Below, piece after piece: positions 5,017-13,894 of a stretch of DNA of 23,043 nt (its first letter is position 1; each line of letters starts with the position of its first letter). The notes under the pieces are model-generated. The model was given only the letters and a program-made list of their open reading frames with translations, searched no databases and was not told the DNA's origin. This DNA is from a virus. The stretch spans positions 1 through 23,043 of IMG/VR virus record IMGVR_UViG_3300006332_000110, one strand, 5' to 3'. The translations under genes and the position numbers were made by a program.

Positions 5017-5126
5017 AGTATTGTTATCGTTTGAGACCCATCTTTATTATCAGTTACAGTTATCTTTTTACCTGGAAATGATTTTGATAGTAAACGTTTT
5101 AATCTTTGGTGTTTAAATAAATTCAT
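5013..5126 (-). CDS. Small 37-residue protein of unknown function
   Basis: An ORF of 37 codons plus stop fills the only gap between the JmjC-like gene and the 178-residue gene. Its ATG (5126-5124) overlaps the upstream TGA as ATGA, and its own TGA (5015-5013) overlaps the downstream ATG as ATGA. This is the same coupling seen at many junctions here. The peptide starts MNLFKHQRLKRLLSKSF, is strongly basic in its first 22 residues, and ends in a strand-like stretch KKITVTDNKDGSQTITIL. No family recognised. The double overlap and exact filling of the gap are the evidence; there is no homology support. Confidence 0.65.
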   Translation of the reverse strand: MNLFKHQRLKRLLSKSFPGKKITVTDNKDGSQTITIL

Positions 5127-5581
5127 AATAAACCGAAACTTACTGTTGCTCTAGGACTGTGGACAGTAGGGTTATGATAGACTCCCTTTGGTATAAAAAT
5201 ACTATCACCAGGATCCAACACATATAATTTCCCATCGTCAAATCCATACTCCATTCGACCTATTGCTTGTACAATTAAAACATCCTTATCATCACAGTGT
5301 CTACCATGATTGCATGCATCTTTACAAAATGAAACGTACACATCAACATCACAGTAATCATATTTAGATTCCAGATCAGGTTGTACTAACCTTACTAGAT
5401 CATTAAGAGTACCAGGAAAATAATTGTTGTGACATACAACCCCAACTCTCGGATGAAAGTCTGATGGTCCTCCAGAAACTTGAAGATAGTGAGACCCCTC
5501 AGTGAACTCACTATCTAGCTTCTTTATTACATCATCCCAAGAAACCCATGAGGGGTAATGGTTTTTCTTGTATAGTATCAT
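5123..5581 (-). CDS. Cupin / JmjC-like Fe(II)-dependent protein
   Basis: A 152-residue protein with a double-stranded beta-helix pattern. The putative metal ligands are His95 and Asp97 (GRHCDDKDVLIVQ) and distal His136 in LDPGDSIFIPKGVYHNP. PGD...IP.G..H is the classic second cupin motif, and HxD...H is the Fe(II)/2OG ligand set of JmjC-type hydroxylases. It may therefore hydroxylate a protein or small molecule, but the substrate is unknown. It starts in an ATGA overlap with the CobT-like gene, and its stop overlaps the small 37-residue gene. The placement between the CobT-like and CobS-like genes may indicate joint expression. Confidence 0.65.
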   Translation of the reverse strand: MILYKKNHYPSWVSWDDVIKKLDSEFTEGSHYLQVSGGPSDFHPRVGVVCHNNYFPGTLNDLVRLVQPDLESKYDYCDVDVYVSFCKDACNHGRHCDDKDVLIVQAIGRMEYGFDDGKLYVLDPGDSIFIPKGVYHNPTVHSPRATVSFGLL

Positions 5582-9833: not shown

Positions 9834-10860
9834 CTGATGCCTCCATGTATAAGGACTTAAGTATCTTAAATATTCCTTCCTTATTTTCAAAGTCAGAAAC
9901 ACACTGCTCTAGTATAGTTAAAGTATCTGCTATCTCCACGTCGTCATCTACATCATCCAGATCATATGCCATGTCCTCAATTATCTTGAGGTCTGCTAAG
10001 TCAGCAGCCTGTAATCTACGGACTAGACTATCAAATTTAAGTTGATCATTCTTTTCTTCTACTATAACCTTTACATACATTCCGTCAAGGTTTTTAATAT
10101 CTACTGGAGACAAAGATGTCTCATCAGTATAGTATATTTTATGGAATGTCTCAAAAGGATTCTCATAAAATTTAAGACTTCCTTTACCCCTAGTATTTAG
10201 AATATGAAACCCTCTTTTCTGACCGTAGTCATTCCAGTAGAGTTGGCATGGGTTACCTAGGTAAGTAATGTTTGATTTAGTACTCTTGACATGATAGTGA
10301 CCAGTGCATACCATTTTAAATTTTTGTAATGGAGTAGGGTCATCACCATGTGTCATAGTATATCCAGGTATGGGATCAAATCCATTCAATTCAAGATGAC
10401 CCATACAATAATCAGCATCTGTATCTTGTATTGCTTCCCATGTGGTTTCCCTATTCTCATCACAGATCCAAGGGACAAGCATCATCTTCTTACCACCTAT
10501 AAGTCTTTCACCTGGACAATAAATGATCTCAATATTATCAAACTCCCCAAGGAGAAGCTCAGGAGAATTAACCCTGAGAGTATTCTTGAAATAGATGTCA
10601 TGATTCCCTAACAGCATTGTCATTTTAACTCCTCTGTCTTGTAGAGGTCGGAACCACATCTCTTTGGCTGCCTCTAAGGAAGCGAAGTTAACTCCCTTTC
10701 TTCTATCAAACGTATCACCTAGACATAATACCTCTGTGATACCTTCTTCATCAATTTTAGGTAGGACTACCTCAGTATAAAACTTACGATACCTCTCAAC
10801 ATAATGCAGATTATCATTTCGGACACCGAAATGCTGATCAGTTATTAGGAGTACTTTCAT
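9817..10860 (-). CDS. gp47: Recombination endonuclease subunit gp47 (SbcD/Mre11-like)
   Basis: A 347-residue metallophosphoesterase, similar in length to T4 gp47 (339). All the phosphoesterase motifs are present: TDQHFG at residues 7-12, GDTFDRR at 48-54, GNHD at 85-88, GHLE at 154-157 and GHYH at 187-190. These bind two metal ions at the nuclease site. It forms the end-processing nuclease with gp46. The start overlaps the stop of the preceding oxygenase gene as ATGA, and its end overlaps the DUF3110 gene. Confidence 0.96.
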   Translation of the reverse strand: MKVLLITDQHFGVRNDNLHYVERYRKFYTEVVLPKIDEEGITEVLCLGDTFDRRKGVNFASLEAAKEMWFRPLQDRGVKMTMLLGNHDIYFKNTLRVNSPELLLGEFDNIEIIYCPGERLIGGKKMMLVPWICDENRETTWEAIQDTDADYCMGHLELNGFDPIPGYTMTHGDDPTPLQKFKMVCTGHYHVKSTKSNITYLGNPCQLYWNDYGQKRGFHILNTRGKGSLKFYENPFETFHKIYYTDETSLSPVDIKNLDGMYVKVIVEEKNDQLKFDSLVRRLQAADLADLKIIEDMAYDLDDVDDDVEIADTLTILEQCVSDFENKEGIFKILKSLYMEASDVCAT

Positions 10861-11450
10861 ACAAGATTACCGTTAAAGTTTATACTTATTGCTTGCCTTT
10901 GTCCAGTTGCAAACTCTGTGCGATGACGTATCCATCCAGGAAATAACAGGAAGTCTCCTGTCCTAGTTGGCACCGTCTCAGTTATGATAGCATCACCGTG
11001 GTCATCCTGCAAGGGGGTCAACCTACGAATGTAATCTAATGGATCACAAAGTTGAATGTCACCACCCTCACCCTTCTCCAAATAGTATACAGATGCTATA
11101 TGACATCCAAACTTACCATTACAATGGGAATGCTCACCAGTGTTATCACCTTCCTGATGTATGTTAGACCAACATGCAGTAGGTTCTATTTGAGCAGGTG
11201 CAAACTTAAGATGTTGATCCCAATACTCACACACAGATCCCATCATATTCTCTATAAGTCCAGCAACTAGAGGTTCAGTCATATGAAGTTCAAGATCAAA
11301 TTCTCCCGTAGAATATCCCGTCTCAGATGCCCATTCACCTCTCTTACATTTCTTATATCTCTCCTCTAGTACTTCTATAAGACCTTCGGGAGGATCTATA
11401 TGTCCCTGCCAAACAGGTATAGAAAATAGATTATGTAATTTTCGGTTCAT
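10857..11450 (-). CDS. 2OG-Fe(II) oxygenase family protein
   Basis: A 197-residue protein when started at ATG 11450 (MNRKLHNLFSIPVW). It has the 2OG-FeII_Oxy_5 pattern: WSNIHQEGDNTGEHSH, with His107 and His109 likely at the metal site, VYYLEKGEGG with LCDP, then FLLFPGWIRHRTEF giving distal His176, and Arg185 before AISINF for 2-oxoglutarate. The substrate is unknown. A start at 11465 is open, but GAGG within the first codons of that longer frame is well placed as the ribosome binding site for 11450, and 11450 overlaps pcyA by 20 bases instead of 35. It lies between pcyA and gene 47. It differs from the oxygenase at 1-583 in sequence but shares the family plan. Confidence 0.85.
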   Translation of the reverse strand: MNRKLHNLFSIPVWQGHIDPPEGLIEVLEERYKKCKRGEWASETGYSTGEFDLELHMTEPLVAGLIENMMGSVCEYWDQHLKFAPAQIEPTACWSNIHQEGDNTGEHSHCNGKFGCHIASVYYLEKGEGGDIQLCDPLDYIRRLTPLQDDHGDAIITETVPTRTGDFLLFPGWIRHRTEFATGQRQAISINFNGNLV

Positions 11451-12117
11451 CGAATAATACCTCATTCATATACATGTCTGCAAAGGATTCATCAAACCAT
11501 TGCTTTAATATACCACGTGTCTTATCGTTTCTCTTCTGCTGTTTACAATACCAGATCTGATCATCCAATCTCTTCATAGTATTGACCCACTTGTCATCCT
11601 TTTTAGAGTCTAACACACCCTCTTTAAAGAAGGTAAGGTAGTGGAGTATAACACAATAGAAGTTTGCTATATCTATCTCCTCTTTCAACCGTGTAAACTT
11701 ACAGTATGGTGAGAAGATCTCATCACCCCATAGTGGTAATGGTCTCTTATGTTGAAAGTGATACTCATTACTTACTTCTCTTATACCACTCCAGAAATTA
11801 TCTGGGACTCCATGCACAGGAGATACATCAACGATAGCAGCAGTGACTTGTTCCTTACTAGCAACTACATCACACCCAAAAATAGGTAGAGGATAATGAG
11901 GATCGGGAAACAATACACAATGTAGTATTCTCATCTCATTAATCTCTGCCAACTCAAGGTGCATCTTCCTTAAGACAGGTGATTTATACATGGTATTCTT
12001 AATTATCAACCCTTCCTTCTTCACCTCATGTAGAGGACACTTTACCTTCTTCACGTCAGGTAGATCCTGCATAGCATAGGTTAATAAGACTGCTACATCT
12101 TCTACAAAATCACGCAT
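11431..12117 (-). CDS. pcyA: Phycocyanobilin:ferredoxin oxidoreductase (PcyA-type bilin reductase)
   Basis: A 228-residue ferredoxin-dependent bilin reductase. The segment LRKMHLELAE...ILHCVLFP...LPIFGCDVV closely follows cyanobacterial PcyA and keeps its three catalytic residues: Glu55 (Glu76 of Synechocystis PcyA), His66 (His88) and Asp83 (Asp105), with the same His-Asp spacing. WGDEIFSPYC, the KRNDKTRGIL motif and the ending MNEVLFD are also PcyA features. PcyA reduces biliverdin by four electrons to phycocyanobilin, the precursor of phycobilisome and phytochrome chromophores. It lies directly after pebS with an 8-base overlap. The alternative is the related phage enzyme PcyX, which makes phycoerythrobilin; the retained Glu argues for PcyA, but phylogeny is needed to settle it. 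Confidence 0.88.
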   Translation of the reverse strand: MRDFVEDVAVLLTYAMQDLPDVKKVKCPLHEVKKEGLIIKNTMYKSPVLRKMHLELAEINEMRILHCVLFPDPHYPLPIFGCDVVASKEQVTAAIVDVSPVHGVPDNFWSGIREVSNEYHFQHKRPLPLWGDEIFSPYCKFTRLKEEIDIANFYCVILHYLTFFKEGVLDSKKDDKWVNTMKRLDDQIWYCKQQKRNDKTRGILKQWFDESFADMYMNEVLFDEPKIT

Positions 12118-12760
12118 AACTAAAAAAGAATTCCTTTATTATTTGTTCCGACTCTTCTTTACCGAAGGCACTACCCAGATACCCTGAGATAGGATCTAAC
12201 TTGATCATATACTTATCAAAGTCATGGTAGTAACTACCATCTTCCCCAGTAGGTTTTCCTTCGTCTATTAAATGCTTATACCAAATTAGATATGTCTTAA
12301 ACATTGGTAGAAAATCATCTACCTCTGATGCTTTACAGTATCTAACGTAAATATTCTTTGAAAAATGATTACCCTTCTCAAAGAATCTATAATCTTTCTC
12401 TGCAAATGGTAGACTGTCTACCTCATACAGATAGTTCTCTATTGGATGTTGGAAATCAAATACTATTATAACTTTCTTCTCACTAAATCCCATCAAGTCC
12501 ATACCAAAGCAAGGGATTATCTCGTCTCCTACCTGTGGTGTCTTAGGATATATTATATTGTTGTGTATATTAAGATTTTTTCCGTCCCATATATCTACAT
12601 GCCTAGACTTGAGGAAGTATTTACCACTGTATAAGTCAGCAGTTAACTTAACTCCTTTCTTATTCTCCCACGTTGCATGATTAGATTCAAATGTTAGGTC
12701 AGGAAACGCATCAAAGACTGCTGACCTATAACCAGCCCATAAATCAGTCATGTATTCCAT
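12110..12760 (-). CDS. pebS: Phycoerythrobilin synthase (PebS-type bilin reductase)
   Basis: A 216-residue ferredoxin-dependent bilin reductase very like PebS of cyanophage P-SSM2 (233 residues). Shared blocks are YPKT...PCFGMDLM, KKVIIVFDFQHP, YRFFE.GNHFSKNI.VRYCK, and KP.GED followed by DFD.YM..LDP. The two catalytic Asp of PebS (105 and 206) are present as Asp88 in FGMD and Asp189 in KLDP. PebS converts biliverdin to phycoerythrobilin in two two-electron steps, a job that needs PebA plus PebB in the host. An ATG at 12751 has a GGA nearby and overlaps the upstream gene by 8 bases, so the first three residues are uncertain. It is co-transcribed with pcyA. Confidence 0.94.
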   Translation of the reverse strand: MEYMTDLWAGYRSAVFDAFPDLTFESNHATWENKKGVKLTADLYSGKYFLKSRHVDIWDGKNLNIHNNIIYPKTPQVGDEIIPCFGMDLMGFSEKKVIIVFDFQHPIENYLYEVDSLPFAEKDYRFFEKGNHFSKNIYVRYCKASEVDDFLPMFKTYLIWYKHLIDEGKPTGEDGSYYHDFDKYMIKLDPISGYLGSAFGKEESEQIIKEFFFSYA

Positions 12761-12938
12761 ATGGTGTTAGATCATATTTTGCCACCACTAAAGGTTCACC
12801 CTTACGTGGTGTTGGTTCACCTATCTTTGCTAGGATATCAGCTGGTATCTTCTTCATACTAATGTCATAGGGTATGGGTGCGTTAGATAGACATACTCTC
12901 ACACATTCCCACTCCTCCTCTGTTAATTCATACATCAC
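12744..12938 (-). CDS. Small protein of unknown function
   Basis: A 64-residue acidic protein starting MMYELTEEEWECVRVCLSNA, which looks helical, followed by a Pro- and Gly-rich second half. No family recognised. The start ATG overlaps the gp55 stop as ATGA and its end overlaps the pebS start, so it appears to be a real link in the gp55-pebS-pcyA operon. Support is positional only. Confidence 0.65.
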   Translation of the reverse strand: MMYELTEEEWECVRVCLSNAPIPYDISMKKIPADILAKIGEPTPRKGEPLVVAKYDLTPYGIHD

Positions 12939-13414
12939 TGTCGCATATTAGTTTCGATACGACCTTTAATCTGATTCATATCAGCATGGTTATCTTTATC
13001 ATCTGAATGGAATACTTGATCATATCCACTCTTTTCTATGAGTTTATCTCTGATATCCATTTGACGCTTCTCTTTTGCTATTCTTCTTAAGAAAGCGTAA
13101 TATATTATCTGTGTGAAATAGGCAAAGGGATTCTTAGATTTAGTTGGGTCAAAGTTATCAATATATTGGACACAATTTTCAACACCATCGGATATCATAT
13201 CCTCTTTAAACATATAGTTAATGAAGTTAGGTCTATATGATAAGTGTGTTGCTATTTTTAAAAAACATTCAGCAAGATATCTTGATATGACAGGTTTATC
13301 CCAGTCGGAAGCACGAGCATCATCAACAGCCTGACGATACTTTGTTATCTCTTCTAAAAACTTTTTGTTATCAACGTAATGTTGTTTCTGTTTACGTGCC
13401 ACCTTTCTTGCCAT
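12935..13414 (-). CDS. gp55: Late-transcription sigma factor (gp55-like)
   Basis: A 159-residue protein matching T4 gp55 (185). The match includes YVDNKKFLEEITKYR, then ISRYLAECFLKIATHLSYRPNF, KEDMISDGVENCVQYIDNFD, and KSKNPFAYFTQIIYYAFLRRIAKEKRQ, which is the sigma region 2-like part that contacts RNA polymerase and the late -10 element. gp55 directs RNA polymerase to late promoters of the TATAAATA type, helped by gp33 and the gp45 clamp. It is shorter than T4 gp55 at the C-terminus. Its presence fits the CTAAATA-like motifs upstream of the head genes in this window. The stop overlaps the next start as ATGA. Confidence 0.92.
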   Translation of the reverse strand: MARKVARKQKQHYVDNKKFLEEITKYRQAVDDARASDWDKPVISRYLAECFLKIATHLSYRPNFINYMFKEDMISDGVENCVQYIDNFDPTKSKNPFAYFTQIIYYAFLRRIAKEKRQMDIRDKLIEKSGYDQVFHSDDKDNHADMNQIKGRIETNMRQ

Positions 13415-13459
13415 ATCTCTATCTCACCTGATTCATTATAAGGAACTAATGTTGTTATG

Positions 13460-13894
13460 TCAAGCGTTAGTACGTCTCCAGAAGTCTTCTAATTTAGATC
13501 TAAAGTCAGAGACTTTACCAACAAGTCCCATATTTTTATTCATCTCAATCTCAACGTCTGAATTTTTACCGCCCTTCTCTTTCCTTAACCACATTTTATA
13601 CATTAATACTGCTTCCATTGCCATGGGAGCACACGTTATTACATCATCTTCGTTAACCATGTAGAAATCTTCATCGGAAAACATCATCCACTTGATAAGA
13701 CCTACCGCCATACCTGGTTGACCTTCCTTCTCCACTGGATGATTCACTGGAGAGGCAGGTTCTTGTATATAAAATACGGTTTTACCTGGTTGAAAATCTT
13801 CTTCGGTAGCAATCATGGATCCCATAATGGTTTCACCTGATCGCAATTTAATTATACCGTAGAATTCTTGCTCATGTTTAATATAATTAATCAT
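13460..13894 (-). CDS. Conserved hypothetical protein
   Basis: A 144-residue protein. The first third, FYGIIKLRSGETIMGSMI, has a strand-turn-strand look that could be a small Sm-like barrel. The C-terminal third (ALVMYKMW-like helix, then WLRKEKGG and a helix ending KLEDFWRRTNA) is helical. I recall similar genes next to uvsW in cyanophages but cannot name a function. The start overlaps the uvsW stop as ATGA. A gap of 45 bases separates it from gp55. Confidence 0.72.
   Translation of the reverse strand: MINYIKHEQEFYGIIKLRSGETIMGSMIATEEDFQPGKTVFYIQEPASPVNHPVEKEGQPGMAVGLIKWMMFSDEDFYMVNEDDVITCAPMAMEAVLMYKMWLRKEKGGKNSDVEIEMNKNMGLVGKVSDFRSKLEDFWRRTNA

Follow-up and report, generated by a model that had tools for sequence, protein, structure and literature searches.

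We report two different bilin reductase genes, pebS and pcyA, which lie side by side and overlap by eight bases in a virus contig from IMG/VR (IMGVR_UViG_3300006332_000110; all 23,043 nucleotides analysed are referred to here as the window). The reading we favour, at a probability of roughly three in four, is that the pair is a two-enzyme cassette of T4-like cyanophages for the joint production of phycoerythrobilin and phycocyanobilin from biliverdin. A first-pass annotation of this DNA had described two distinct, co-directional reductases sharing eight bases, each with the catalytic residues of its own type. Both open reading frames were found as it placed them, on the minus strand, and alignment confirmed the residues: Asp88 and Asp189 in PebS, and Glu55, His66 and Asp83 in PcyA.

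The first gene of the pair (12110–12760, minus strand) encodes a protein of 216 residues for which family, fold and clade all indicate phage phycoerythrobilin synthase. Its score against PF05996 is 51.6 bits (Pfam cut-off 31), it matches PHROG 7278, and the closest solved structure is PebS of phage P-SSM2 (PDB entry 2vck; E = 1e-66). The same structure is the top PDB fold match of its AlphaFold model (pLDDT 90.9), with a TM score of 0.93 and an r.m.s.d. of 1.4 Å. Asp88 and Asp189 align with Asp105 and Asp206 of the P-SSM2 enzyme, the positions mutated in PDB entries 2x9i and 2x9j, and both aspartates are kept in all 68 tandem and all 79 solo PebS rows. In a quick tree, all 20 PebS rows share one branch (support 100), apart from PebA and PebB. 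By these measures the protein is a PebS, with the four-electron reduction of biliverdin to phycoerythrobilin as its predicted reaction. Its true start may lie at codon 4 (12751) rather than at 12760, because 19 of the 21 tandem groups at the same genome site begin pebS at the equivalent codon; gene starts here are ORF calls of this analysis, taken as the nearest ATG to the aligned start.

The second gene (11431–12117, minus strand) encodes a protein of 228 residues, which profile, fold and tree assign to PcyA, the phycocyanobilin:ferredoxin oxidoreductase, with conversion of biliverdin to phycocyanobilin as its predicted reaction. It scores 173.2 bits against PF05996 (Pfam cut-off 31) and 224.6 bits against the NCBIfam PcyA equivalog NF002760 (cut-off 206), and it matches Synechocystis PcyA (2d1e) with an E value of 8e-41 versus 2e-8 for PcyX. 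The best PDB fold matches of its model (pLDDT 93.4) are PcyA structures (TM 0.92). Glu55, His66 and Asp83 align with Glu76, His88 and Asp105 of the Synechocystis enzyme, residue numbers along this alignment having been counted by hand. All three are kept in 65/65 tandem PcyA rows and in 71/71 rows from genome contigs, some of which lack a cyanobacterial title. All 60 solo phage rows retain Glu and Asp, and 59 retain His; phage metaG-MbCM1 (L116, 1959–2660) has Gln in place of this catalytic His88. A scan of the genome contigs using the window PcyA returned no relative, and an alignment query on the same set then gave 75. One of the contigs, 188 kb long and filed as Nonlabens xiamenensis (Bacteroidota; L218), has a PcyA whose neighbour in the tree is the P-TIM40 cyanophage protein; the contig is probably a cyanophage genome within a bacterial assembly.

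The assignment to PcyA had to be distinguished from PcyX. Glu76 is described as specific to PcyA, as needed for reduction of the 18-vinyl group and as missing in PcyX (PMC10151467, as far as its accessible text goes). The protein of phage Mosig, PcyX-type according to the available part of PMC11480375 and putative PcyA in its own record, has Asp in the Glu76 column, where the window protein has Glu; the Mosig protein reaches 89.9 bits, below the PcyA cut-off of 206, and sits alone on a long branch in the quick tree. The placement relative to PcyX is that of the quick tree, as the Mosig and myxobacterial long-branch rows were omitted from the careful tree. Profile score, tree position and the Glu exclude a PcyX identity, and the placement among PcyX that the first-pass annotation had named as a possible refutation was not what we found: the protein groups with PcyA. 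By sequence and model, we take it to be PcyA and not PcyX, and its product is predicted to be phycocyanobilin.

The two genes share the bases ATGCGTGA (12110–12117, minus strand), in which the Tyr-Ala-stop end of PebS contains the ATG of PcyA. Loci with exact shared DNA were merged, which reduced 282 loci to 259 groups, and the pebS–pcyA pair was found in at least 81 groups of distinct DNA, including the window and the isolate P-RSM6. Because it is found in so many groups, the pair is not a chance arrangement. The spacing between the genes is −8 in 57 of these groups, −11 in 13, −17 in two, +2 in two and about +430 in seven, such that the pcyA start falls within the pebS end in 72/81; pebS comes first in every tandem counted as a consequence of how tandems were sought. 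In six of the seven gaps of about 430 bases, at the nrdB site, lies a gene of one family (L073, L075–L077, L079 and L082), assigned to PHROG 6464 in the one that was scanned (L077). Relatives of this gene stand directly upstream of pebS in L047, L050, L081 and L083.

The association follows the type of PebS. Among the 80 IMG/VR contigs that best matched the window PebS, 75 had enough downstream DNA to be judged, and 68 of them carry pcyA next, directly in 61 and after about 430 intervening bases in seven. For PebS of the P-SSM2 type, pcyA adjoins in 0/71 testable contigs of the best 80, and for the S-SSM7 type in 0/73 testable among 78 newly fetched contigs. As these counts draw on the best 80 of at most 599 matches per scan, they describe samples chosen by similarity and are no census. 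A scan with the junction pattern gave 73 new loci among the matches listed: 35 tandems (several on contigs already known), two pebS genes at a contig edge and 36 unrelated contigs without a bilin reductase. In annotated phage records, 27 PcyA and 31 PebS matches were obtained, and P-RSM6 is the only phage in both lists. This isolate, the host of which is Prochlorococcus NATL2A, has both a GenBank and a RefSeq entry, with pebS and pcyA annotated as adjacent genes overlapping by eight bases. P-RSM6 and the IMG/VR tandems exclude the uniqueness of the pair, and the first-pass statement that phage pebS and pcyA are known singly does not hold.

The pair occupies several places in phage genomes. Sites were assigned using neighbouring genes as markers, and the tandem groups are distributed as follows: 21 by gp55 (site A, that of the window), 11 by the terminase gene gp17 (B), 21 by peptidase/cobS (C), eight by gp32 (D) and 13 after nrdB (E), with seven assigned to no site. 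Applied to solo genes, these markers place pcyA at sites A, B, C and E and pebS at C and D. Phage records with a solo pcyA include P-SSM4 (site C), P-RSM4, P-RSM1 and metaG-MbCM1 (all site B) and ACG-2014j (site E). P-RSM6 carries its pair at a different site from the window, by terminase gp17. In one contig (L302, 2557–5062), the peptidase site is occupied by a P-SSM4-like pcyA, and a pebS of the solo type follows at a distance of 1.2 kb, not adjacent to it. The window also encodes a small cupin/JmjC-like protein (5123–5581; PHROG 4992), with a peptidase-like ORF on one side and a pyrimidine dimer glycosylase on the other, near a site where other phages hold the bilin pair.

The histories of the two halves differ. 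We built a careful tree from 58 rows selected by hand, and larger quick trees from 158 PebS and 128 PcyA rows; cut genes and exact duplicates with the same label were omitted, and P-RSM6 PcyA, identical to that of L371, is thus absent from the large tree. In the careful tree, the 13 tandem PebS rows, including that of the window, lie on one branch (support 95/99), whereas a single clade of the 13 tandem PcyA rows is rejected (AU test, p = 0.0004); the split had already been visible, before this test, in the quick tree with the 20 PebS rows. Tandem PcyA proteins mostly form groups of their own. The tandem label needs four changes in the PcyA part of the careful tree, at least three of them via well-supported branches, and each could be either a gain or a loss. 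The larger quick trees need two changes for PebS and four for PcyA. Over 61 loci with both genes, the distances in the two trees correlate at 0.65, a partial agreement, and among the 59 of them that have a site, this site changes ten times along the PebS tree and six times along the PcyA tree; for this count, L010, L022 and L029 were placed at site B, and L064 at site E, by hand. P-RSM6 and the window illustrate this disagreement, as their PebS proteins are 88% identical and their PcyA proteins are 44% identical and belong to different groups. Since the trees disagree, the pair would appear to have moved between sites and to have swapped one half for that of another lineage. Loss is also indicated. 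The solo-pebS contigs L056–L060 nest inside the tandem PebS clade (four rows), and PebS in all five ends with the tandem-type SYA, three more residues and a stop; this ending, together with the nesting, points to a loss of pcyA. Both genes are under purifying selection, with dN/dS values of 0.06–0.29 for pcyA and 0.08–0.24 for pebS in 14 hand-picked pairs.

In the window, the pair belongs to a series of overlapping genes on the minus strand: the gp55-like late sigma factor (12935–13414; PHROG 234, E = 4.1e-66), which is the upstream marker of site A; an ORF of 64 residues (12744–12938; PHROG 37679, E = 1.8e-40) that overlaps both gp55 and pebS; pebS; pcyA; and a 2OG-Fe(II) oxygenase (10857–11465; PF13759, E = 2.8e-12) that overlaps the end of pcyA. 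The 64-residue ORF is 100% identical in L005 and L006 and has no match in L074. Before gp55, and directed towards pebS and pcyA, is a promoter-like sequence, TTGACA-17-TATAAT (13435–13463, minus strand), which matches the sigma-70-type consensus at 12/12 positions. A single site of this kind means little, because the region contains 32 of them where 18.1 would be expected. A comparable site does precede gp55 in 8/8 of the pebS-bearing site-A loci examined; the comparison set comprised ten site-A loci, of which L099 and L100, without pebS, are not among the eight. A search for late-promoter motifs near pebS found none. A Shine–Dalgarno-like motif precedes pcyA by no more than 25 bases in 47/77 groups, with a long spacing of 12–14 in seven examples.

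No match to a heme oxygenase or a 2Fe–2S ferredoxin was found within the window, and to this extent the first-pass remark that no heme oxygenase is nearby stands. It holds only locally: heme oxygenase occurs elsewhere in four of eight tandem-carrying records, including three of the four longer than 160 kb, at distances of roughly 28–83 kb, and fragments may miss it. Ferredoxin was found in one of the eight records searched, with the same reservation about fragments. A CpeT-like gene is present in four of the eight, namely the four longer than 160 kb, with weak scores that are partly just over the cut-off. A contig of 162.7 kb with the exact window pair (G001), which may be incomplete, gave neither heme oxygenase nor 2Fe–2S ferredoxin.

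From these observations, the following scheme can be proposed. The window pebS and pcyA are probably co-transcribed with gp55 from a host-type promoter, and translation of the two proteins is probably coupled across the eight-base overlap. As family, fold and residues suggest, PebS would convert biliverdin to phycoerythrobilin and PcyA would convert it to phycocyanobilin, both using ferredoxin; the biliverdin itself would be produced from heme, either by a phage heme oxygenase whose gene lies outside the window or by the host enzyme. The infected cell would then make both chromophores at once, most likely keeping or reshaping its antenna. The benefit of both pigments is nevertheless hard to see, because Prochlorococcus, the host of P-RSM6, is without intact phycobilisomes according to the available text of PMC3037559.

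Two of the alternatives would deprive the pair of one of its products or of its existence. The window switches between G001-like and G002-like DNA inside pebS, so that an assembly artefact might have joined pebS and pcyA of different phages. It is 99.3% identical to G001 over 1.3–12.75 kb and 98–100% identical to G002 across most of 12.26–16.2 kb, and becomes G001-like again in parts of 16.6–20.2 kb after a second switch near 16.4 kb; a stretch of pebS common to both (12264–12751, minus strand) contains the switch point and has three mismatches to G001 and one to G002. By nucleotide comparison, then, DNA of two phage types alternates along the window, a mosaic that may reflect true recombination or an assembly join. 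Recombination is common in these phages, and the return to G001-like DNA suits it as well as it suits mis-joining. However, each parent holds its own pebS–pcyA tandem, that of G001 being the exact window pair at the protein level, and the tandem is also found in the isolate P-RSM6 and 77 further groups. The tandem therefore does not require a chimeric join and stands despite the mosaic, and we consider an artefact of the pair itself very improbable. A less remote but still improbable alternative is that one of the enzymes makes a different product or has lost its activity, in which case the pair would yield a single bilin. PcyX, described as a phage relative of PcyA that makes phycoerythrobilin (PMC11480375, in the part available), provides a precedent, and Ile203 of the window PcyA (Val225 in Synechocystis) departs from most cyanobacterial PcyA; Ile is found in this column in 58/65 tandem, 2/60 solo phage and 4/71 genome-contig rows. 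Against this, the window and every tandem row keep the PcyA-specific Glu76 that is Asp in Mosig, PcyA and PebS lie in their own clades, and selection acts to preserve both genes. The residues lend no support to the changed product that the first-pass annotation had raised.

It may also be asked whether adjacency has a function of its own, as the pair could be a by-product of gene-dense cargo sites into which two individually useful genes both insert. This would agree with solo pcyA at four sites that also hold tandems, with L302, in which both genes are present and non-adjacent, and with the apparent loss of pcyA in L056–L060. The placement of the pcyA start inside the pebS end in most groups, the pairing of a single PebS clade among the best matches and the persistence of the pair at no fewer than five genome sites speak against it, and we regard it as unlikely, although it merits more weight than the previous two. 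Our preferred reading, joint production of the two bilins, can be extended to a tentative account in which the cassette, translated from a single coupled message, is a biliverdin splitter: one PebS lineage was joined to PcyA, and a selected pigment ratio kept the pair together while it moved among at least five sites and gained PcyA partners fitting hosts or light. Tuning of the pigment ratio by the phage is plausible, and this longer history is a possibility that we would put well short of even odds. The recurrence of the pair, with its overlap conserved, suggests joint production of the two pigments in many ocean phages, and P-RSM6, which grows on Prochlorococcus NATL2A, is a cultured phage that offers a direct test.

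In the accessible portions of the literature cited here, both enzymes are familiar. In vitro activities of phage PebS and PcyA and the expression of pebS have been described (PMC3037559; PMC4928673), pebS is regarded as phage-only (PMC13198022), and PebS in Synechococcus 7942 gives a high supply of phycoerythrobilin (PMC13197396). A table of 16 cyanophages lists pebS in four and pcyA in three, never together (PMC3037559), and a survey in 2023 of 153 cyanophage genomes reports PcyA in 16 and PebS in nine, P-RSM6 among them (PMC10452541), without discussing the pair in the part of its text available. The same partial view of the open-licence PMC literature yielded no discussion of a pebS–pcyA pair. 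Why cyanophages, even those on Prochlorococcus, carry bilin genes is a standing puzzle (PMC3037559; PMC4928673).

Compared with known systems, the window PebS resembles that of P-SSM2 in fold and in both catalytic aspartates, but the two are about 52% identical, and P-SSM2 pebS has no adjoining pcyA and falls outside the tandem clade. The window PcyA shares Glu76, His88, Asp105 and an above-cut-off score with the cyanobacterial enzyme (2d1e) and with phage PcyA such as that of P-SSM4. At the position of Synechocystis Asp220 (residue 198 of the window PcyA), tandem and solo phage PcyA differ: 58/65 tandem rows and 71/71 genome-contig rows have Asp, but only 2/60 solo phage rows do, most of which carry Lys, Arg or Pro instead. 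P-RSM6 has the gene order, overlap and a close PebS in common with the window, and differs in genome site and PcyA group. The cyanobacterial pebA–pebB genes are also an overlapping two-reductase operon, with a four-base overlap in Synechococcus WH7803; however, PebA and PebB act serially to give one product (PMC13198022, as available), whereas PebS and PcyA would compete for one substrate. The hemO–pcyX genes of the pelagiphage Mosig are likewise a phage cassette for bilin synthesis that includes an enzyme related to PcyA (PMC11480375, in the accessible text), but they combine a heme oxygenase with one reductase, whereas the window pair consists of two reductases without a heme oxygenase alongside. 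The enzymes are of known kinds and the arrangement appears to be new: an overlapping two-reductase cassette, recurrent in uncultured cyanophages, annotated in one isolate and apparently undescribed.
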